Positions 12,263 through 56,151 of a stretch of 64,000 nucleotides of DNA are shown in pieces (position 1 is the stretch's first letter; each line of letters starts with the position of its first letter). The DNA is taken from assembly GCF_010725055.1 (NCBI RefSeq), contig NZ_BJKB01000013.1:62001-126000 (forward strand). Direction: 5' to 3'. This DNA is from Gelidibacter japonicus (GTDB lineage: Bacteria > Bacteroidota > Bacteroidia > Flavobacteriales > Flavobacteriaceae). The notes under the pieces were generated by a model that saw only the letters and a list, made by a program, of their open reading frames with translations, had not been told where the DNA came from and made no database searches. The translations under genes and the position numbers were made by a program.

Positions 12263-13345
12263 TTAAGAATTAATAATCTTTTCTTGGTGATTAATTGATT
12301 CCTGGTGAATTGCTTTAAACATTTTAAGTATAAACTCTTCGCTCAAACCATTTTGTTCACCTTCCAAGACCATATTCCCCAAAATTTCATTCCAACGCTT
12401 GCTTTGTAAAACAGCCACGTTCTTTTTCTTTTTTAGAGCCCCAATCCCATCAGAAAATTTCATACGCTTGCCCAGTATTTCAATGAGCTGATTATCTACA
12501 ACATCAATCTGCGCTCTCAAATGACTCAATTCGGCATTGTATTCTTTTTCAGGATCAGATTCTTTCCTTATGCGCAAATCTTTCATAATTTGAATCAGGG
12601 TTTGAGGCGTTACCTGTTGGGAAGCATCACTCCAAGCTGCATCTGGATTTGTATGAGTCTCAATCATGAGCCCGTCAAAATTCAGGTCTAAGGCAGTTTG
12701 TGATACATCAAAAATCATATCTCGCTTTCCTGTGATGTGCGACGGATCATTGATCAAAGGCAAATCTGGAAACTTCGTTTGCAATTCAATGGCCAATTGC
12801 CATTCTGGATTGTTTCTGTACTTCGTTTTTTCATAAGTTGAAAACCCTCTGTGTATAGCACCCAATCTTTTGATATCTGCCGATGCCAAGCGCTCAATAG
12901 CTCCCAACCACAATGGTAAATCTGGATTTACCGGATTCTTCACCAGTACAATCTTGTCTGTTCCTTTTAGTGCATCAGCAATTTCTTGAACAATAAATGG
13001 GCTCACGGTAGAACGTGCACCGATCCAAAGCAAGTCGATATCATGCTCCAAAGCCAGTTCAACATGTGCTCTATTGGCTACCTCCGTTGCGGTTTTAAGA
13101 CCTGTTTCTTCTTTAACCTTTTGCAGCCATTTCAATCCCAATGCGCCAACGCCCTCAAACATTCCAGGACGTGTACGTGGCTTCCAAATTCCAGCTCTAA
13201 AATAACTAACATCTGTATCTTTCAATTCTTGGGCAATACCCAATACCTGTTCTTCTGTTTCTGCACTGCATGGACCTGCAATGACCAAAGGATGATCCAA
13301 TTTCAGATCATCTAACCATGTTCTTAATTCTCTCTTGTTTTCCAT
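12263..13345 (-). CDS. Bifunctional DAHP synthase / chorismate mutase (type II)
   Basis: A 360-residue fusion. The N-terminal part is a 3-deoxy-7-phosphoheptulonate synthase of the AroG/KdsA-related class (VIAGPCSAETEEQ, FRAGIWKPRTRPGMFEG, INDPSHITGKRDMI). The C-terminal 90 residues form an AroQ-type chorismate mutase (LRAQIDVVDNQLIEILGKRM, then GIGALKKKKNVAVLQSKRW). It carries out the first shikimate step and the chorismate-to-prephenate step, so it is the natural last gene of the pheA-aminotransferase-tyrA run. I start at MENKRELRTWL. An upstream in-frame ATG at 13399 would add 18 residues encoded by a palindromic repeat (MPACRQTG), a usual mis-annotation. Confidence 0.93.
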   Translation of the reverse strand: MENKRELRTWLDDLKLDHPLVIAGPCSAETEEQVLGIAQELKDTDVSYFRAGIWKPRTRPGMFEGVGALGLKWLQKVKEETGLKTATEVANRAHVELALEHDIDLLWIGARSTVSPFIVQEIADALKGTDKIVLVKNPVNPDLPLWLGAIERLASADIKRLGAIHRGFSTYEKTKYRNNPEWQLAIELQTKFPDLPLINDPSHITGKRDMIFDVSQTALDLNFDGLMIETHTNPDAAWSDASQQVTPQTLIQIMKDLRIRKESDPEKEYNAELSHLRAQIDVVDNQLIEILGKRMKFSDGIGALKKKKNVAVLQSKRWNEILGNMVLEGEQNGLSEEFILKMFKAIHQESINHQEKIINS

Positions 13346-13377
13346 AATACTTATTAATTTCCAAATTTTAAAATTCC

Positions 13378-13398
13378 CTGTCTGCCGACAGGCAGGCA
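13378..13398. repeat. Palindromic intergenic repeat (CCTGTCTGCCGACAGGCAGG type)
   Basis: A GC-rich inverted repeat just upstream of the DAHP synthase start, related to the perfect 20-bp palindrome at 44386-44405. Read as coding it gives the spurious peptide PACRQTG. Confidence 0.7.
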
Positions 13399-13466
13399 AA
13401 TTCCAAGGTTTACTCTATAAGCTGATAGTATTGGAATTTGGTGCTGTGATTTTCATTTATTTAATA

Positions 13467-14318
13467 CTATTGTATACCGTTTAATATTTCTTTTATGTGA
13501 TTTGTATTTTTCATTTGTGTATAAATGGCCTCAAAATCATCCTCGTGTATGAACTCCCTAAATTTTTGGAGATTGATGATGTATTCATCCAAGGTTTCTA
13601 AGACATTGACTTTATTCTGTTTGAAAATTGGCGTCCACATTTCTGGGGAGCTTTTTGCCAAACGGACGGTCGATGCAAATCCACTTCCTGCCATATCAAA
13701 AATATCGCGTTCGTTTCGCTCTTTATCAATCACTGTTTTACCCAACATAAACGAACTTATATGCGATAGATGCGACACATAGGCAATATGTTTATCATGG
13801 GCTTCAGGATTCATATAGCGGATGCGCATACCCAGATCTGCAAATAACGTAAGGGCTTTTTCCTGAAGTTTGAAAGCTGTCTTTTCAACCTCACAAATAA
13901 TATTGGTTTTGTTTTGGTACAATCCATTTATTGCGGCTTTTGGCCCAGAAAACTCCGTCCCTGCGATGGGATGCGTTGCCAGAAAATTACGACGTTTTGG
14001 ATGGCCGTCAATAGCTTTGCAGATTTCGGCTTTTGTAGATCCAACGTCCATGACCAAGGTATCATCTGAAACCAAATCCAATACCTTTATGATCTCATTG
14101 ACTGCGGCATCTACAGGTATGGACATAATGACCAAATCCGCCTTTTTCAGATCTTCATAAGTGGCTTTGGCATCGATAACATTGAGCTGTACAGCCTCTT
14201 CCAAATGGGTTTCGTTATGATCAATCCCAAACACCTTCACCTTTTGATGGTGTTTCTTAATATCAAGGGCCAAACTTCCACCAATCAAACCAACTCCTAT
14301 GATGTATATATTTTTCAT
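13467..14318 (-). CDS. tyrA: Prephenate dehydrogenase
   Basis: A 283-residue NAD(P)-dependent enzyme that oxidatively decarboxylates prephenate to 4-hydroxyphenylpyruvate for tyrosine. The Rossmann motif GVGLIGGSLALD is at the extreme N terminus, followed by VIMSIPVDA, DVGSTKAEICKAI and ATHPIAGTEFSGPKAA (substrate-site histidine region). I start at MKNIYIIGVGLIGG; the longer reading from 14348 places ten residues before the Rossmann strand. It is third in the aromatic operon. Confidence 0.93.
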   Translation of the reverse strand: MKNIYIIGVGLIGGSLALDIKKHHQKVKVFGIDHNETHLEEAVQLNVIDAKATYEDLKKADLVIMSIPVDAAVNEIIKVLDLVSDDTLVMDVGSTKAEICKAIDGHPKRRNFLATHPIAGTEFSGPKAAINGLYQNKTNIICEVEKTAFKLQEKALTLFADLGMRIRYMNPEAHDKHIAYVSHLSHISSFMLGKTVIDKERNERDIFDMAGSGFASTVRLAKSSPEMWTPIFKQNKVNVLETLDEYIINLQKFREFIHEDDFEAIYTQMKNTNHIKEILNGIQ

Positions 14319-14488
14319 TACTGATATTATGTCGTCCCTCTTGGACATTCTTCTTGTTTTCTTATTATTATTTTGATCTACAAATGGACCATCTCTCCAA
14401 GACTATAATTTTTGGATGTAATATCATTATCATTCGTTCTAACAACCGTAACTGCCAACTTCAATCTGACATCCGACAAGTGTTCCAC

Positions 14489-15634
14489 TCATTTCACCCT
14501 TGAGATTGCTTCGTGCAAGTCTTCCAATGGCGCACATAGTGAAAAGCGTATATAGCCTTCTCCATTGCTCCCAAAAATGGTCCCAGGAGCAATAAAAATT
14601 GAATGTTCCTTCAATATCTTATCGATATATTCTTCGGCCTTTATATGTGGCGGTAGTTTTGCCCAAACAAAAAGTCCTGTTGCACTTACATCATAGGTAC
14701 AATTCAATGCTGTGGCTAGTTCCCATACTTTTTGGCGACGCTCTTCATAAACACTGTTCAAACTGATAAACCACATTTTTGAACATTTCAAAGCTTCAAT
14801 GGCGCCCTTTTGAATACCATAAAACATTCCAGAATCCATATTACTTTTCACCTTTAAAATAGCGTTGATATATTCTGTTTTTCCTAAAACCATTCCAACT
14901 CGCCATCCCGCCATATTAAAGGTTTTACTTAACGAATTAAGCTCCAAGCAAAAATCTTTGGCACCTTTATATTTTAAAATGCTTCGTGGATAGTCATTCA
15001 ATACAAAACTGTAAGGGTTATCATTCACCACCAAAATATTATGTCTTTTTGCAAAAGCGATAATATCTTCAAAAACCTTATTACTTGCTGTAGCTCCCGT
15101 TGGCATATGTGGATAACTGACCCACATTAATTTTACTTTGGATAAGTCACTTTTTTCTAAGGCAACAAAATCAGGACACCAATCGTTTTCTTCCACCAAA
15201 TCATAAAAGACGGGTTTCGCACCCACTAGTTTTGTCACAGATTCATAGGTTGGATATCCTGGGTTTGGAATCAAAACCTCATCTCCCTGATTTAAAAACG
15301 CCATAGATATATGCATGATGCCTTCCTTACTTCCCATTAATGGCAATACTTCAGTCAGCGGACTTAAGTGGACACCAAAATGTTCCTTATAAAAATCCAC
15401 CATGGCCTCTCTCAACTCCGGCAAACCTTGATAACTCTGGTATTTGTGGGCTACAGCATCGTTCATGCTCTCATTGATAGCCATAATAACTCGGGATGGC
15501 GGTTCCAAATCGGGACTCCCAATCCCTAAATTTATAATAGGTTTCCCTTGGGATTTAAGTAAGTTGACTTCCCTCAATTTTTTTGAGAAGTAGTATTCTT
15601 CAACAGTGTTTAATCTATCTGCAAAAGTGATCAT
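14489..15634 (-). CDS. PLP-dependent aminotransferase (class I/II), probably aromatic
   Basis: A 381-residue fold-type I aminotransferase. Visible: NLGIGSPDLEPPSRV, YQSYQGLPELREAMVDFY, GSKEGIMHISMAFLN, NPGYPTYESV and the PLP-lysine segment SLSKTFNMAGWRVG. The start overlaps the pheA stop by 4 bp (ATGA). Its place between pheA and tyrA makes transamination of phenylpyruvate and 4-hydroxyphenylpyruvate the likely role. The sequence alone would also allow an aspartate or LL-diaminopimelate-type activity. Confidence 0.87.
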   Translation of the reverse strand: MITFADRLNTVEEYYFSKKLREVNLLKSQGKPIINLGIGSPDLEPPSRVIMAINESMNDAVAHKYQSYQGLPELREAMVDFYKEHFGVHLSPLTEVLPLMGSKEGIMHISMAFLNQGDEVLIPNPGYPTYESVTKLVGAKPVFYDLVEENDWCPDFVALEKSDLSKVKLMWVSYPHMPTGATASNKVFEDIIAFAKRHNILVVNDNPYSFVLNDYPRSILKYKGAKDFCLELNSLSKTFNMAGWRVGMVLGKTEYINAILKVKSNMDSGMFYGIQKGAIEALKCSKMWFISLNSVYEERRQKVWELATALNCTYDVSATGLFVWAKLPPHIKAEEYIDKILKEHSIFIAPGTIFGSNGEGYIRFSLCAPLEDLHEAISRVK

Positions 15635-16458
15635 TTTCGTGCATTTTTATATTCGCCCAAAACCTTGAAATTTTGTGCCATTATTTCCATTATTGATTTT
15701 GCTTTTTGATAATCCTGATACGCCTCAAAAGTGATATCCACAAAAAAAGCATACTTCCATGGGGTTTCAATTATTGGCAGGGATTGTATTTTGGTAAGGT
15801 TCATTCTACAGTCGCTCATCACGTTTAAGACCGATGCCAAACTGCCACGTTTGTGATCTACGTCAAATTTTAAGGAAGCCTTATTGATCTGTACTTCTTG
15901 CGCTTCAGAATTGTTGGTCACAGCAACCACAAAACGGGTTTCATTCTGTTTAATGGTCTGGATACTTTCTGCGACAATCTCCAGTTCAAACAATTCTGAA
16001 GCCAATTGACTGGCAATAGCCCCTACATTTTTAAGTTGTTTCTGCCGAATCCGTTGTGCCACTTCAGCGGTATCTTTATCCTCTACCAATTTGATATGAG
16101 GATAATTTTTAAAAAATTGTTTACACTGCAACAAAGCCATGGGATGTGAATACACTTCATGGATATCTTCAATGCTTTGACCTGGCAAGGCCATTAAGTG
16201 ATGTTGAATATCCAAATAATGCTCGCCAATAATATGCAATTTATTATCGTCAATCAACGCGTAATTTGGAATGATAGACCCAGCTATAGAGTTTTCAATG
16301 GCCATGATCACCGCATCTGTTTTATTGGATAAAACACTCTGCACAGCGCCATCAAAGGTCATGCACTCATCAATGTTCAATGGATTGTCAAAATACTGTA
16401 AAGCGACAATATGGTGGAATGATCCTTTAATTCCTTGTATGGCAACAGATTTTATCAT
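15631..16458 (-). CDS. pheA: Prephenate dehydratase
   Basis: A 275-residue enzyme converting prephenate to phenylpyruvate. The catalytic domain (about 1-180) has IQGIKGSFHHIVALQYF, AIENSIAGSI and QNETRFVVAV with the catalytic TRF. An ACT domain follows (RGSLASVLNVMSDCRMNLTK). The usual ESRP phenylalanine-binding motif of the ACT domain reads QSLP (TKIQSLPI), so allosteric feedback may be weak or different. It is the first gene of the aromatic operon and lies directly after a leader-peptide attenuator. Confidence 0.93.
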   Translation of the reverse strand: MIKSVAIQGIKGSFHHIVALQYFDNPLNIDECMTFDGAVQSVLSNKTDAVIMAIENSIAGSIIPNYALIDDNKLHIIGEHYLDIQHHLMALPGQSIEDIHEVYSHPMALLQCKQFFKNYPHIKLVEDKDTAEVAQRIRQKQLKNVGAIASQLASELFELEIVAESIQTIKQNETRFVVAVTNNSEAQEVQINKASLKFDVDHKRGSLASVLNVMSDCRMNLTKIQSLPIIETPWKYAFFVDITFEAYQDYQKAKSIMEIMAQNFKVLGEYKNARK

Positions 16459-16522: not shown

Positions 16523-16548
16523 AAAAAAGTCCCGATTTTCATCGAGAC
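16523..16548 (-). terminator. Attenuator terminator in the pheA operon leader
   Basis: On the minus strand GTCTCGAT-GAAA-ATCGGGAC (seven of eight pairs) is followed by TTTTTT. It lies 65 bp before pheA, between the leader peptide and the first structural gene, so it ends transcription early rather than after a gene. Confidence 0.85.
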
Positions 16549-16594
16549 CTTTATATTAAATTTATTGTTCATAAATTACACATACGAAGTCTCG
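16543..16594 (-). promoter_or_regulatory. Antiterminator helix of the pheA operon leader
   Basis: CGAGACTT (plus-strand 16587-16594, inside codons 20-23 of the leader peptide) pairs with AGGTCTCG (16543-16550), which contains the 5' arm of the terminator. The two helices exclude each other. A ribosome stalled on the aromatic codons leaves CGAGACTT free. A ribosome reaching the stop codon covers it and lets the terminator form. Confidence 0.75.
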
Positions 16595-16653
16595 TCCCTT
16601 TTGCTAAAAAAGAAATAAAACCAGTTTTGATATGTATAATTAGCTGTTTGCAT
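16576..16653 (-). CDS. Aromatic leader peptide of the pheA operon (attenuator)
   Basis: A 25-codon ORF starting MQTANYTYQN and running through Trp-Phe-Tyr-Phe-Phe-Phe at residues 11-16, then SKRDETSYV and a TAA stop. Six aromatic residues in a row, three further tyrosines and its place just before a terminator/antiterminator pair are the hallmarks of a translation-controlled attenuator such as pheL in enterobacteria. Scarcity of charged Phe (and perhaps Tyr or Trp) tRNA would stall the ribosome and allow transcription of pheA, the aminotransferase gene, tyrA and DAHP synthase. Translation has not been shown; the call rests on the layout. Confidence 0.8.
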   Translation of the reverse strand: MQTANYTYQNWFYFFFSKRDETSYV

Positions 16654-16661
16654 AATTTGAT

Positions 16662-16678
16662 TTCGCTAAAGTAGCGAA
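16662..16678 (-). other. Hairpin just before the leader peptide
   Basis: TTCGCTA-CTT-TAGCGAA (minus strand) is a perfect 7-bp stem with a 3-nt loop ending 8 bp before the leader ATG. It may be a pause hairpin, as in classical attenuators, or protect the 5' end. The role is inference. Confidence 0.5.
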
Positions 16679-16691
16679 TAATTTTTATAAA

Positions 16692-16734
16692 CAAAATATT
16701 TTTTCGATTCTTTTTATAATACAACGATTTCGTT
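16692..16734 (-). promoter_or_regulatory. Possible promoter/operator region of the pheA operon
   Basis: TATTTTG (16692-16698) is one base short of the TAnnTTTG box. A TTG lies about 23 bp upstream of it, inside the palindrome AACGATTTCGTT (16723-16734), which also lies about 25 bp upstream of the divergent gldA -7 box. Weak, but it is the only candidate that would place the RNA start just before the hairpin and leader peptide. Confidence 0.3.
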
Positions 16735-25468: not shown

Positions 25469-25535
25469 TGTTTAATAAACTAAATAATGTCATCAGGAAA
25501 GTGAGGAGAAAAAACACTTTGGTTATCTGTCTTAA

Positions 25536-25553
25536 TTCTGAAACAATTCAGAA
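25536..25553 (-). other. Hairpin downstream of the metH SAM-I aptamer
   Basis: TTCTGAA-TTGT-TTCAGAA (minus strand) is a perfect 7-bp stem just 3' of the aptamer. No T-run follows, so it is a possible part of the expression platform rather than a clear terminator. Confidence 0.45.
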
Positions 25554-25555
25554 TA

Positions 25556-25662
25556 AAGTAGAATTTAGCACCTTCTTAAATTGAGATTCCTGCCTTCGCA
25601 GGAATTCGTAAGGGTTGCTAAGGCTTCACTGGGTCTAATCCCTCTGCCTTTCGTGATAACAA
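25556..25662 (-). promoter_or_regulatory. SAM-I (S-box) riboswitch upstream of metH
   Basis: Read on the minus strand, the S-box core is plain: GTTATC, then GGCAGAGGGATTAGACCC, AGTGAAGCCTTAGCAACC and finally AAGGTGCTAAATTCTACT. It lies 87 bp before the metH N-terminal half on the same strand. Binding of SAM should lower expression of methionine synthase. The P3-type arm between GCAACC and GGTGC is enlarged by an inserted palindrome. The metY copy at 42574-42660 has the ordinary short arm. Confidence 0.92.
25586..25605. repeat. Palindromic repeat inserted in the SAM-I aptamer
   Basis: ATTCCTGCCTTCGCAGGAAT, the same element as in the nearby tandem array, lies in the apical loop of the aptamer arm between GCAACCCTT and AAGGTGC. 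The conserved core is untouched. Confidence 0.85.
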
Positions 25663-41109: not shown

Positions 41110-42414
41110 TTAGTTGGATGAATTATGTAAAAGTGTCTCACTCACGACTTTAAATGCCTGTTTTAAATCGGCTTTTAAATCATCAATATGCTCCAAGCCA
41201 ACTGACAAACGGATTAAGTCCTTGGTTGTACCTGTTGTTTCTTGGGCTTCATCAGATAATTGCTGGTGCGTGGTACTTGCAGGATGGATGATAAGCGATT
41301 TGCTATCGCCAATATTTGCCAACAATGAGAACAACTCGGTTTTGTCCGCAATAATCTTTGCAGCTTCGTAACCGCCAACAACACCGAAAGTCACTAGTCC
41401 GCTTTTACCTTCAGGAAGATATTGATCGGCTAATTTTTTATAAGGACTGCTGTCCAAGCCTGGATAATTTACCCAAGTCACTTCTTCTTGTTCTTGCAAC
41501 CATTTGGCCAGTTCCAAGGCATTTTTACTGTGTTGTTTGATACGCAATTCCAAAGTTTCCAAACCTTGAATAATTTGAAAGGCATTAAACGGGCTCAATG
41601 CAGAACCATAATCGCGAAGTCCTTCAATACGTACTTTCGCTATAAACGAAGCATTTTTCAAAACGTCGGTATAGACCAATCCATGATAACCCGGAGATGG
41701 CTCCGTAAACTCAGGAAATTTCCCATTGGCCCAGTCAAATTTCCCAGCGTCAACAATGGCTCCACCAATGGCCGTTCCATTTCCGTTGACATATTTCGTC
41801 AAGGAATGGATGACAATATCAGCCCCGTGTTCAATTGGTTTTACCAAATACGAAGTGGCCACTGTATTATCAACAAACAAAGGTACTTTATTAGCTTTGG
41901 CTACTTTGGAAATGGCCTTGATATCCAACACATCCAATTTCGGATTTCCTAAGGATTCGATAAAAATCACACGTGTATTTTCTTTTACTGCCTTATCAAA
42001 GTTGTCAGGATCTGAAGGATCAACAAATGTGGTGGTGATTCCATGTCTTGGCAAGGTCACATTCAACAAATTATAAGTACCTCCGTACAAACTACTTGAA
42101 GCCACAATATGGTCTCCCGTTCTCAAAAGCGTGAGCAACGATGTGGCAATTGCTGCCATGCCTGAAGAGGTTACAACTGCCGCGATACCACCATCAAGTG
42201 CCGCTAACCGCTGCTCTAAAATGTCATTGGTTGGATTATTGATTCGGGTGTAAATGTTTCCTGGTTCTGCCAATGCAAATAAATTTGCGGCGTGATCAGA
42301 ATCTTTAAAAACAAATGCTGTAGATTGATAAATTGGTACGGCTCTGGTACCTCCATTGGATTGAACATCGTGTCCTGCGTGCAACGCTTGGGTTGCAAAT
42401 TTTTGTGTACTCAT
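41110..42414 (-). CDS. metY: O-acetylhomoserine sulfhydrylase
   Basis: A 434-residue PLP enzyme that makes homocysteine from O-acetylhomoserine and sulfide. It has the longer C-terminal form typical of MetY (TRINNPTNDILEQRLAALDG, ESLGNPKLDVLDI, PLP-lysine in VIHSLTKYVNGNGTAIGG, GYHGLVYTDVLKNASF, ALSPFNAFQIIQGLETLELR). First gene after the SAM-I riboswitch, followed by osmC and the metX-thrA fusion that makes its substrate. Confidence 0.93.
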   Translation of the reverse strand: MSTQKFATQALHAGHDVQSNGGTRAVPIYQSTAFVFKDSDHAANLFALAEPGNIYTRINNPTNDILEQRLAALDGGIAAVVTSSGMAAIATSLLTLLRTGDHIVASSSLYGGTYNLLNVTLPRHGITTTFVDPSDPDNFDKAVKENTRVIFIESLGNPKLDVLDIKAISKVAKANKVPLFVDNTVATSYLVKPIEHGADIVIHSLTKYVNGNGTAIGGAIVDAGKFDWANGKFPEFTEPSPGYHGLVYTDVLKNASFIAKVRIEGLRDYGSALSPFNAFQIIQGLETLELRIKQHSKNALELAKWLQEQEEVTWVNYPGLDSSPYKKLADQYLPEGKSGLVTFGVVGGYEAAKIIADKTELFSLLANIGDSKSLIIHPASTTHQQLSDEAQETTGTTKDLIRLSVGLEHIDDLKADLKQAFKVVSETLLHNSSN

Positions 42415-42573
42415 TTTTCTAAATTTTTTGAGTTAATAAATGAATTAAAACAAAAGCCAATTGCGTCATCACTGACGAACCTAATAGAAAAATGTTAAAA
42501 AGAAAATTATAATTACAGATGAGTAATTACGTTTAGTTATCTATCCAATTACCTGATAAATGAATCAGTAATT

Positions 42574-42660
42574 AAGTAGAATTTAGCACCTTCTCCATTC
42601 CTAAAGGGTTGCTAAGGCTTCACCGGGTCTAATCCCTCCGCCTTTCTTGATAACACTTCA
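42574..42660 (-). promoter_or_regulatory. SAM-I (S-box) riboswitch upstream of metY
   Basis: On the minus strand: GTTATCAAGAAAGGCGGAGG, GATTAGACCCGGTGAAGCC, TTAGCAACC and AAGGTGCTAAATTCTAC, all conserved S-box blocks in order. The arm between GCAACC and GGTGC is short, unlike the metH copy. A 9-bp stem with one bulge (ATTACTGAT / ATCAGGTAAT) overlaps its 3' flank at about 42550-42574. SAM should repress metY, osmC and the fusion gene. Confidence 0.94.
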
Positions 42661-42904: not shown

Positions 42905-43040
42905 AATAAAGAGGAAAGATTTGACTGATTGCAACCTCTTCTGAATCGGAAACTCCGAGGACGAGTCCCATAATCGATGTGGGATAAAAATGCTAAAGGC
43001 AGTGCAAACTACCTTCGACACGACACGTCAAATCTTCCGT
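42905..43040 (+). promoter_or_regulatory. SAM-II-like riboswitch with inserted hairpins and possible anti-aptamer strand, metK leader
   Basis: AAGAGG (42909-42914) pairs with CCTCTT (42935-42940) around a loop holding GATTTG...TTGCA. Further on is GCTAAAGG (42992-42999), and ACTG (42924-42927) can pair with CAGT (43000-43003). These are the P1, loop and pseudoknot features I recall for SAM-II aptamers. Between P1 and GCTAAAGG lie two extra hairpins (TCGGA-AAC-TCCGA and TCCCA...TGGGA). GTCAAATCTTCC (43027-43038) is complementary to the aptamer loop (42913-42925, 12 bp, one bulge), giving an alternative fold. Covariance has not been tested. Confidence 0.6.
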
Positions 43041-43063: not shown

Positions 43064-44356
43064 ATGGCGTACTTATTTACTTCAGAGAGCGTATCTGAAG
43101 GTCACCCAGATAAAGTAGCGGATCAAATTAGTGATGCTTTAATAGACAATTTTTTAGCCTTTGACAAGGACTCAAAAGTTGCTTGCGAAACCCTGGTCAC
43201 AACGGGACAGGTTGTTTTGGCTGGCGAAGTGAAATCACAAACCTATTTGGACGTGCAAAAAATAGCACGGGACACCATCAATAAAATTGGCTACACTAAA
43301 AGCGCTTATATGTTTGATGGCAATTCCTGCGGGGTATTTTCAGCAATCCATGAGCAATCTGAAGACATCAACAGAGGAGTTGATAGAGCCACTAAAGAAG
43401 AGCAAGGAGCAGGAGATCAGGGGATGATGTTTGGTTATGCCACCAGCGAAACCGAAAATTATATGCCATTGGCCCTCGATCTTTCGCATCGACTGATGAT
43501 TGAATTGGCGGCATTACGCAGAGAAAATAAGGATATCACTTATTTACGACCAGATTCCAAAAGTCAAGTTACCATTGAATATAGCGATGACAACATCCCA
43601 CAACGCATTGATGCCATTGTAGTTTCTACCCAACACGACGATTTTATAAAACCAAAATCAAATTCAAAAGCCGATATCGATGCTGCTGAAACTGAAATGT
43701 TGGAGAAGATCAGAAAAGATATTATCAGCATCTTAATTCCGAGAGTTAAGGCAGGACTTCCTGAGCATATTCAGGTACTGTTTAGTGATGATATTACTTA
43801 CCACATCAATCCTACAGGAAAATTTGTTATCGGTGGACCTCATGGGGATACAGGACTAACAGGACGTAAAATCATTGTGGATACTTACGGTGGAAAAGGT
43901 GGTCATGGCGGTGGCGCATTTAGTGGAAAGGACCCAAGTAAGGTGGATAGGAGTGCTGCTTACGCGACGCGTCATATTGCCAAAAATTTAGTTGCTGCAG
44001 GTCTTTGTGAGGAAATCCTGGTTCAGGTAAGTTATGCTATTGGCGTAGTAGAACCAACATCAATTTATGTCAACACCTATGGCACTTGCCCTTTCAACTT
44101 GACCGACGGCGAAATTGCAGAAAAGATATTTGAGATTTTCGATTTACGTCCCGCGGCCATTGAAGAGCGTTTAAAACTTCGCCAACCAATGTACAGTGAA
44201 ACCGCAGCTTATGGCCATATGGGTAGAGTTAATGAAACGGTTTCCAAAACCTTTGAGCAATTCAACGGAACAAAAATAACGCTTGATGTAGAGCTGTTTA
44301 CTTGGGAGAAATTGGATTATGTGGATAAGGTGAAAGAAGCATTTGAAATTAATTAA
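43064..44356 (+). CDS. metK: S-adenosylmethionine synthetase
   Basis: A 430-residue enzyme making SAM from methionine and ATP in the cytoplasm. Motifs: [22 protein letters not shown] at the N terminus, [12 protein letters not shown] (ATP site), [20 protein letters not shown] and [22 protein letters not shown] (phosphate loop). It is about 40 residues longer than the E. coli enzyme, mainly in the middle. Divergent from the metY transcript; a consensus promoter and a SAM-II-like leader precede it. Confidence 0.96.
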
Positions 44357-54885: not shown

Positions 54886-56151
54886 TTATAAATGCCATGA
54901 ATCCGGCCAAAGCCATAGTATCAGTAATCCTCCAAGAATGGCCGCTCCAAAAAAGAGGGCCATCCATTTTGTCAATTGTTTTGTCCCCAAGATGGCGCAA
55001 AGTACAATCTTGAATAATAAATTGGACAATGAAGCCACGACAATCAAGCGCCAGCCAAAGTTTGCATCCAGTCCGCTTCCAATACTTTTCGAGAGCGACA
55101 AGGTTATGGCATCCTTATTTGCCAAGCCCCCTACAAAAGCGGCAACATACAAACCTTTATCACCTAATTCTTGTTGAGTAAATGCAACCGCCAAAAGAAT
55201 AATGGCATAAATGGCACCAAACATCAGAGCGCTTGTTAGTTGCGCCGGATTTTTTGGTTTTGGCATGTCGTCAGACTTACTTTTCTTATTGATGAGATAA
55301 AAAAGAACGACGGAGAGGCCAATCATCATTAAAAATAAAGCCACGATAGGCAATACGACTTTAGAAAGTTGACTCGGGATAACCGCACCAATTTCTATCA
55401 TTACTCGAACCAACGACACCGTTGCCGCCGAGAAAATGACAAATGCAGAGGCCTTATGAATATTTTTACTTTTTTTGGTGAATCGGGCGTAACTGACTGT
55501 GGTTGCTGTGCTGCTGATAATCCCACCCAAGATGCCGTTGGATAAAATCCCATATTTTTTCCCAATAAATTTATAGATAAAATACCCAATAACGCTGATC
55601 CCGACAATTAAAGTCACCATAAGCCAGATATTCCGTAGATTTAATACGTCGAAGGGTCCGAAGGTTTTATCTGGTAAAATTGGAAGGATAATTAAACTGA
55701 TACCTGCCAAAATCATGATGGCTGAGACATCATTATCTTCCAAATCGCCAATAAACTTATGGAGATGATCTTTAACATAGAGTAGAATGGCAATGGCAGC
55801 ACCCATAATCACACCTACCACACGATCTCCAACCACCAAATAAGCTCCAATGGCAAACATCATCAGGGCGGCCATTTCAGTGGTCTGGCCCATGGTAGGA
55901 TTGTCCTGCTTTTTAAGCTTCATTATATTGGCGGTAATGAGCATAGCCGCCATCGCCAACCCAATAAGAGGCAATACATACGGATTGTCATAAAGCCGTG
56001 TCAAAAAACCAGCAATCACACCTAAAACGGATATAAGCGTAAAGGTTCTAACCCCAGCAATCTGATCCTTATTATGCTTCTCACGCTGCATCCCGACCAG
56101 AAGGCCAAGACCAAATGCGATTCCTAATGTGGTGAGATCCTCATAATTCAT
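54886..56151 (-). CDS. MgtC/SapB N-terminal plus DUF4010 membrane protein
   Basis: A 421-residue integral membrane protein with about twelve helices. The N-terminal part resembles MgtC (DLTTLGIAFGLGLLVGMQRE, AGVRTFTLISVLGVIAGFL). The rest is DUF4010 (ILGGIISSTATTVSYARFTKK, AAFVGGLANKDAITLSLSKS). Function unknown; transport or sensing across the inner membrane is plausible. The next gene encodes the App1-like phosphatase with a 1-bp gap. Confidence 0.85.
   Translation of the reverse strand: MNYEDLTTLGIAFGLGLLVGMQREKHNKDQIAGVRTFTLISVLGVIAGFLTRLYDNPYVLPLIGLAMAAMLITANIMKLKKQDNPTMGQTTEMAALMMFAIGAYLVVGDRVVGVIMGAAIAILLYVKDHLHKFIGDLEDNDVSAIMILAGISLIILPILPDKTFGPFDVLNLRNIWLMVTLIVGISVIGYFIYKFIGKKYGILSNGILGGIISSTATTVSYARFTKKSKNIHKASAFVIFSAATVSLVRVMIEIGAVIPSQLSKVVLPIVALFLMMIGLSVVLFYLINKKSKSDDMPKPKNPAQLTSALMFGAIYAIILLAVAFTQQELGDKGLYVAAFVGGLANKDAITLSLSKSIGSGLDANFGWRLIVVASLSNLLFKIVLCAILGTKQLTKWMALFFGAAILGGLLILWLWPDSWHL

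Follow-up and report, generated by a model that had tools for sequence, protein, structure and literature searches.

We analyzed a 64,000-nucleotide stretch of the Gelidibacter japonicus genome (hereafter the window), which carries on its minus strand an operon for the synthesis of aromatic amino acids. The first operon gene is pheA, encoding prephenate dehydratase (positions 15631 to 16458; Pfam PDT, PF00800), and it is followed by a class I/II aminotransferase (14489 to 15634; Pfam Aminotran_1_2) that overlaps pheA by 4 nt, by the prephenate dehydrogenase gene tyrA (13467 to 14348; Pfam PDH_N and PDH_C, with NF006307 above its cut-off), and by a DAHP synthase fused to chorismate mutase (12263 to 13399; Pfam DAHP_synth_1 and CM_2), for which the coordinates take the start of the open reading frame (ORF) as listed and the true start may be internal. 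These Pfam matches bear out a first-pass annotation of this DNA, which had described an operon containing both the Phe and Tyr branches together with a DAHP synthase-chorismate mutase. Of 35 relatives, 32 have the PLP-site motif of the aminotransferase within the pheA locus, and the motif is also present in 73 of the 80 named loci described below. On the other strand, gldA (TIGR03522 above cut-off) is divergent from the pheA operon.

Upstream of pheA, a minus-strand ORF of 25 codons plus a stop (16576 to 16653) encodes the peptide MQTANYTYQNWFYFFFSKRDETSYV, and 117 nt separate its stop codon from the pheA start. Translation of 16653 to 16576 confirms the reading given by the first-pass annotation, with six aromatic residues in a row at positions 11 to 16 (the putative control codons W11 F12 Y13 F14 F15 F16, at 16606 to 16623) and three further Tyr at residues 6, 8, and 24; both F and Y are kept in all of the leaders that we counted. 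Only 3 of the 1,030 ATG-initiated ORFs of 9 to 45 amino acids in the window reach six aromatics in nine residues, the pheA leader among them. When the 300 nt upstream of pheA from 115 family loci were shuffled, six or more aromatics were recovered in 16 of 1,150 shuffles and seven in 1, compared to 112 of the 115 real stretches with six or more, and all 115 reach this number without the 300-nt limit. The aromatic run of the pheA leader is not a product of chance, and the short ORF is rich in codons for the operon's own products, a feature expected of an attenuator at the level of sequence. The leader RNA is also predicted to fold more stably than every one of 200 dinucleotide shuffles (z = -4.26). 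As a separate observation, an ORF at position 55443 of the window encodes YFYFFW.

A predicted intrinsic terminator lies ahead of the first gene, which is the structural counterpart expected of an attenuator. It consists of the minus-strand hairpin AAAGGTCTCGAT-GAAA-ATCGGGACTTTT (16525 to 16552) and a U tract that then runs to about 16521; a terminator had been noted here at 16523 to 16548, and while its presence ahead of pheA stands, the stem at 16552 to 16525 is slightly wider than was claimed. Within the hairpin, arm 3 (AGGTCTCG, 16543 to 16550) could pair either with arm 4, giving the terminator, or with arm 2 (CGAGACTT, 16587 to 16594, codons 20 to 23), the putative 5' arm of an antiterminator, an assignment that draws on complementarity and on the comparison of arms between lineages. 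The proposal that a segment of codons 20 to 23 pairs with the 5' arm of the terminator proved correct, CGAGACTT being complementary to AGGTCTCG. Folding revealed a third element absent from the first-pass annotation, in which arm 1 (AATTATACATAT, 16630 to 16641, codons 5 to 8) pairs with GTATGTGTAATT (16574 to 16585), a segment that is partly also the inner strand of the antiterminator. Terminator-like sites in a 5-kb stretch are not above chance in number (5, versus 3.4 +/- 2.2 in shuffles), and of the five the pheA leader terminator has the longest stem. The terminator stem ends no more than 12 nt from the inferred pheA start in 65 of 209 loci (L012, L041, L054, L086, and others), and in these loci the hairpin may also mask translation initiation, which the hairpin in the window does not.

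At the gathering level, no Rfam family passes its cut-off at the pheA leader. A permissive search of 701 bases recovered Phe_leader (RF01859), whose model matches over its full length at the expected position with 27.4 bits (E = 0.025) and is the only sensible match there at E values up to 5, although below threshold. We rejected membership in RF01859 on the basis of this score, the cut-off being 55 bits, and likewise set aside a T-box or riboswitch at the pheA leader, for which there is no Rfam match at E values up to 5.

The aromatic leader is widely conserved. PheA is present in 9 of 9 genomes of the genus and in 360 of 397 genomes of the family, and we identified an aromatic leader upstream of pheA in all 115 near-family loci, which comprise the nine of the genus, 26 more, and 80 picked among the best matches listed. 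Among named loci, a leader is present in 80 of 80 (the best 80 of 593 candidate stretches, overlapping the near-family set), including those of Flavobacterium, Tenacibaculum, Maribacter, Polaribacter, Winogradskyella, and Kordia. Thirty further family loci were picked mostly from low-identity matches, and 26 of these have the leader; of the exceptions, L330 has a weaker leader and L332, L337, and L351 have none. At the class level, PheA is present in 78 of 295 genomes, some of them from the same family. Of 40 class-level loci (39 outside the family plus L128), 24 have a leader by strict rules (ATG start, 6 of 9 aromatics) and 5 more on looser grounds (L119, L123, L124, L144, and L150). The other 11 are without an accepted leader: ten have none, and L151 has a doubtful ORF without a terminator. 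In at least five of these (L116, L117, L118, L120, and L121) another coding sequence, judged by eye, reaches near pheA, and the leader may sit further upstream; the stretch of another, L139, is shortened by the end of its contig. Loss or frameshift of the ORF with the helices kept was not seen in the 115 near-family loci.

The arms of the putative antiterminator are different in different lineages, and they remain complementary. Two main types occur in the family, with arm 2 CGAGAC and arm 3 GTCTCG in one and arm 2 CGGGAC and arm 3 GTCCCG in the other; Flavobacterium has AGGATT/AATCCT, additional pairs within the family are GAGGCTTT/AAAGCCTC and ACGAGGTT/AGCCTCGT, and those in other families include AGGCGGGA/TCCCGCCT and GAGAACTTC/GGAGTTCTC. 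We defined arm 3 from the terminator alone and sought arm 2 from 3 to 26 nt past the last aromatic codon, which yielded 162 unique arm pairs from 209 of 235 loci with related sequences. Pairing of arm 2 with its own arm 3 scored 16.94, versus 13.41 for swapped arms, and the best of 200 swaps reached 13.94. With one hand-picked locus per family the values were 17.78 for own arms and 13.63 for swapped ones (0 of 20,000 permutations); 12 of 16 families were usable here, the terminator finder having missed the window locus (L001) as well as L125, L135, and L142. Considered locus by locus, the pairing of arms 2 and 3 reached a p of 0.05 in 112 of 129 and 0.01 in 63 of 129, with 17 of 129 missing 0.05. 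In 16 of the 235 loci a leader was called and the finder gave no terminator; terminator counts are lower bounds, as the finder missed hairpins that are visible by eye in several class loci.

An alignment of type A leaders, comprising 60 of 90 unique stretches, has an invariant arm 3 and shows no covariation of the 2:3 helix beyond that of shuffles. Because the 2:3 and 3:4 helices hardly vary inside type A, covariation cannot show there, and the test was therefore moved to the arms of different lineages. Support for the predicted 2:3 helix comes from this between-lineage replacement of arms: a mutually exclusive antiterminator kept by compensatory change is apparent between lineages, not within type A alone. 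Together with the aromatic ORF in 115 of 115 near-family loci, this complementarity is what the first-pass annotation had asked of related genomes, namely a conserved aromatic ORF with compensatory changes in the helices, and the check was passed. In the 60 relatives, 93.1% of cells of the 3:4 helix pair, with one double change, a result matched by 27 to 28 of 500 shuffles. For the 1:2 helix, 85.7% of cells pair and 17 have a double change, a number reached by 0 of 500 shuffles, and controls slid by +2 and +3 gave more, 20 and 28, respectively.

The position of arm 2 is more constant than its sequence. It starts 9 to 11 nt past the last aromatic codon in 132 of the 162 unique pairs when 3 to 26 nt are searched, and the same pattern is recovered when the whole stretch up to arm 3 is searched; a ribosome with the last aromatic codon in its A site would leave arm 2 just uncovered. 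The two families that have tandem leaders (see below) often show a longer spacing of 12 to 16 nt, in a few loci up to 24 nt, and some of their pairings are weak. We folded the leader of the window on the assumption that the ribosome covers the RNA up to 12 nt beyond the first base of the codon in its A site. With the ribosome at codons 11 to 16 and arm 4 unmade, the RNA is predicted to form a composite antiterminator of -17.5 kcal/mol, in which an AU-rich hairpin stacks between the paired arms 2 and 3; a ribosome at codon 20 or beyond covers arm 2, and the RNA then folds into the terminator instead of the antiterminator. The geometry originally suggested for this locus, in which a stall leaves arm 2 free and a ribosome at the stop codon covers it, is thus upheld by the spacing and by folds with this assumed footprint. 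At equilibrium, and with arm 4 synthesized, the terminator is the more stable fold (-21.9 or lower, versus -17.5 for the antiterminator before arm 4), so a working switch must depend on kinetic trapping. Nine of the 115 near-family ORFs (L027, L033, L044, L057, L069, L070, L093, L095, and L105) end no more than three codons past the aromatics with the RNA arm still in place beyond the stop, and therefore past codon 16 the RNA, rather than the peptide tail, seems to be under selection.

Ahead of the leader ORF we identified a putative -7 box, TACTTTAG (16666 to 16673, minus strand), of the TAnnTTTG type that is the -7 consensus of Bacteroidetes (PMC7366714, PMC9723704), and a putative -33 element, TTTG (16692 to 16695, minus strand), read from the sequence. 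By eye, TTTTG recurs about 18 nt ahead of the -7 box in many of 35 relatives. Of 141 family leaders, 131 have a TAnWTTWG box in the 60 nt upstream of the leader ATG, compared to 151 of 2,300 control windows; the median gap between box and ATG is 16 nt, and this proximity indicates that the 5' untranslated region of the leader mRNA is probably about ten nucleotides long. An A is present at -3 of the leader ATG in 116 of the 141 family leaders. We dropped as a candidate the palindrome TTCGCTA/TAGCGAA, which overlies the -7 box in the window, as it is not kept in L002 to L004.

Other amino acid operons of the same genome have leaders of their own, and these count in favor of an attenuator ahead of pheA. 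A His leader, MNFIQSHHHHHHICTQAN (HHHHHH; L314, 1141 to 1197), lies ahead of hisG, and a Trp leader, MYTTLNHTWWWNFSKQHS (WWW; L317, 1320 to 1376), lies ahead of trpE, the latter matching the Rfam family Bacteroid-trp at 53.7 bits (cut-off, 49). Two Ile leaders in tandem, MKKQNLNIISIISAVIISQR (L319, 99 to 161) and MNQNIIIISVIIINSS (L319, 231 to 281), precede a 300-codon ORF and then ilvD, each with a terminator of its own and an arm that is complementary as judged by eye. Both Ile leaders and both terminators are found in 8 of 9 Gelidibacter genomes (the others being L352 to L354, L357, L358, and L361 to L363), and L360 has neither. No leader was found upstream of thrA of the same genome at a threshold of 6 T or I in 10.

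Taken together, the conservation of the leader, the complementarity of arms between lineages, and the spacing support the attenuator interpretation of the first-pass annotation, and we are highly confident that the leader acts as a ribosome-mediated transcription attenuator, which would permit read-through into the pheA-tyrA operon during a shortage of charged Phe- or Tyr-tRNA. Every leader counted contains both Phe and Tyr codons, and F and Y interchange across families by eye; Trp occurs in 83 of 115 near-family leaders, in 16 of 26 from low-identity family loci, in 4 of 24 at the class level, and in 36 of 80 from the named loci. The likely joint signal is therefore charged Phe- and Tyr-tRNA, fitting an operon with both branches, and of the several aromatic tRNAs that one leader was suggested to sense, Trp appears to be optional. 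Read from the anatomy, conservation, helix complementarity, and spacing that we observed, the promoter, ribosome stalling, termination, and physiological response would work together as follows. Transcription would begin just upstream of the leader ATG. Under scarcity, the first ribosome would stall at codons 12 to 16 (F-Y-F-F-F) and hinder arm 1, leaving arm 2 free to pair with arm 3, with the AU-rich hairpin stacked between them, ahead of the synthesis of arm 4, and the polymerase would enter pheA. A ribosome that reaches the stop codon would instead cover arm 2, permitting arms 3 and 4 to pair and transcription to end. In an untranslated leader, the 1:2 helix would sequester the inner strand of the antiterminator, giving termination by default.

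We also considered whether the ORF might encode a functional micropeptide, or an arrest peptide of the TnaC type that senses free Phe or Tyr in the exit tunnel, in which case the peptide sequence itself would be selected; we regard this as improbable. The type A peptide is strikingly uniform (..YTY..NWFYFFFSKRNETLYV), but its tail coincides with arm 2 and the 1:2 helix, so that constraint on the RNA can explain the uniformity of the tail, and in type B the tail changes completely (to KRGTGLL) along with the arms. Moreover, the nine shortened near-family ORFs retain the arm, and across the class only the aromatic nature of the residues is kept, with F and Y interchanging by eye. Slightly harder still to credit is an effect proposed by Korolev et al. 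2016 (PMC4833913), by which the leader would boost translation of pheA through re-initiation or coupling and not act on transcription. The 65 of 209 loci with terminator stems ending within 12 nt of the inferred pheA start would be in keeping with this, but the pheA start in the window is 117 nt past the leader stop, compared to a Bacteroidetes peak at 11 to 14 bp and a requirement of at least 40 bp for attenuators in that study, and re-initiation has no need of terminator-type U tracts or competing helices. That an ordinary terminator or other conserved RNA element lies beside a chance ORF can be virtually dismissed: AT-rich DNA has TTT and TAT codons in abundance, six aromatics in nine residues also occur in two other ORFs of the window, and terminator-like sites are not above chance in number, but this number of aromatics occurs in only 16 of 1,150 shuffles versus 112 of 115 real stretches, spacing and complementarity are maintained across families, and no Rfam family is above cut-off at the pheA leader.

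The attenuator ahead of pheA is doubled in some lineages. Among 58 loci sampled from two other families, 23 (10 of 30 and 13 of 28; L256 to L264, L271, L286 to L294, L296, L300, L304, and L306) have two aromatic leaders in series, roughly 125 to 175 nt apart, and in 19 of the 23 the finder recovered a terminator for both leaders, one of them weak. A wider reading, which we consider somewhat more likely than not, is that the aromatic attenuator is an old device shared by the class containing Flavobacteriaceae. In this reading, whole helices were exchanged repeatedly in the course of its history, with the codons and an almost constant distance from ribosome to arm preserved, and at least two families have doubled it in series ahead of pheA, as Gelidibacter has done with the Ile leaders upstream of ilvD. 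If so, gates in series for one signal would steepen the response, and tandem gates would require a second ribosome closely pursuing the polymerase, in a phylum whose translation initiation does without Shine-Dalgarno sequences.

Attenuation by leader peptides is classical; the direct analogue of the leader described here is the enterobacterial pheL-pheA system, in which a leader peptide with Phe codons lies ahead of pheA and a terminator competes with an antiterminator. The Gelidibacter leader shares the Phe codons ahead of pheA and the competing terminator and antiterminator; unlike pheL, it has Tyr and often Trp beside Phe, the operon carries the Tyr branch, and the host belongs to a phylum without Shine-Dalgarno sequences (PMC6847099). 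A 2021 study of F. psychrophilum (PMC9723704) reported a structured 5' element ahead of pheA, the same gene in the same family, that is conserved in other Flavobacteriaceae genera and without Rfam hits, and it noted strong clues for leader-peptide attenuation ahead of the amino acid operons of that species as a group. We found no pheA leader peptide, arms, or codons given in that study, and no mention of class-wide spread, helix replacement, or tandem copies. The remark in the first-pass annotation that such control of this operon is not known to have been described in flavobacteria holds for the pheA peptide and arms, of which we found no description, and does not hold for the structured pheA element and the clues to leader peptides. 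Bacteroid-trp (RF01692), listed in PMC2864571, is a leader-peptide RNA of the same phylum with one member ahead of trpE in this genome; it has Trp codons and is a different RNA, with no match at the pheA leader. The Salmonella mgtCBR leader, which PMC3641672 presents as a singular case of attenuators in tandem that respond to different signals, resembles the pheA and ilv tandems in having two leader ORFs and attenuators in one leader mRNA, but it senses ATP and proline, whereas in the pheA and in the ilv tandems the codons of both leaders specify the same amino acids. Within what PMC8305728 relates of his genes in the same superphylum, there is nothing on leaders. Among the open-licence PMC papers listed, we found none on class-wide Phe/Tyr leaders, helix replacement at near-fixed spacing, or same-signal tandems, parts of which may be in Lopatovskaya et al. 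2010 (cited in PMC4833913).

The attenuator in the window follows a textbook principle and is itself partly foreshadowed in print, and the wider pattern, old, swapping its helices at nearly fixed spacing, and sometimes doubled, is the more interesting result. On comparative grounds, it suggests that amino acid control in a phylum without Shine-Dalgarno sequences depends on the first ribosome being tightly coupled to RNA polymerase, and the roughly two hundred natural leaders described here (some sets overlap) are offered as evidence for such coupling. Nearly fixed spacing across unrelated helices provides a ready-made measure of ribosome reach, and the tandems allow a test of what is gained from a second attenuator that has the same amino acid as its signal.

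The window also contains three riboswitch matches, all away from the pheA leader. A SAM-I match (42534 to 42656, minus strand) and a SAM-II match (42905 to 43006, plus strand) lie back to back on opposite strands in the same intergenic region, whose flanking ORFs end at 42414 and begin at 43064, and a second SAM-I riboswitch lies at 25520 to 25662 on the minus strand (70.4 bits).
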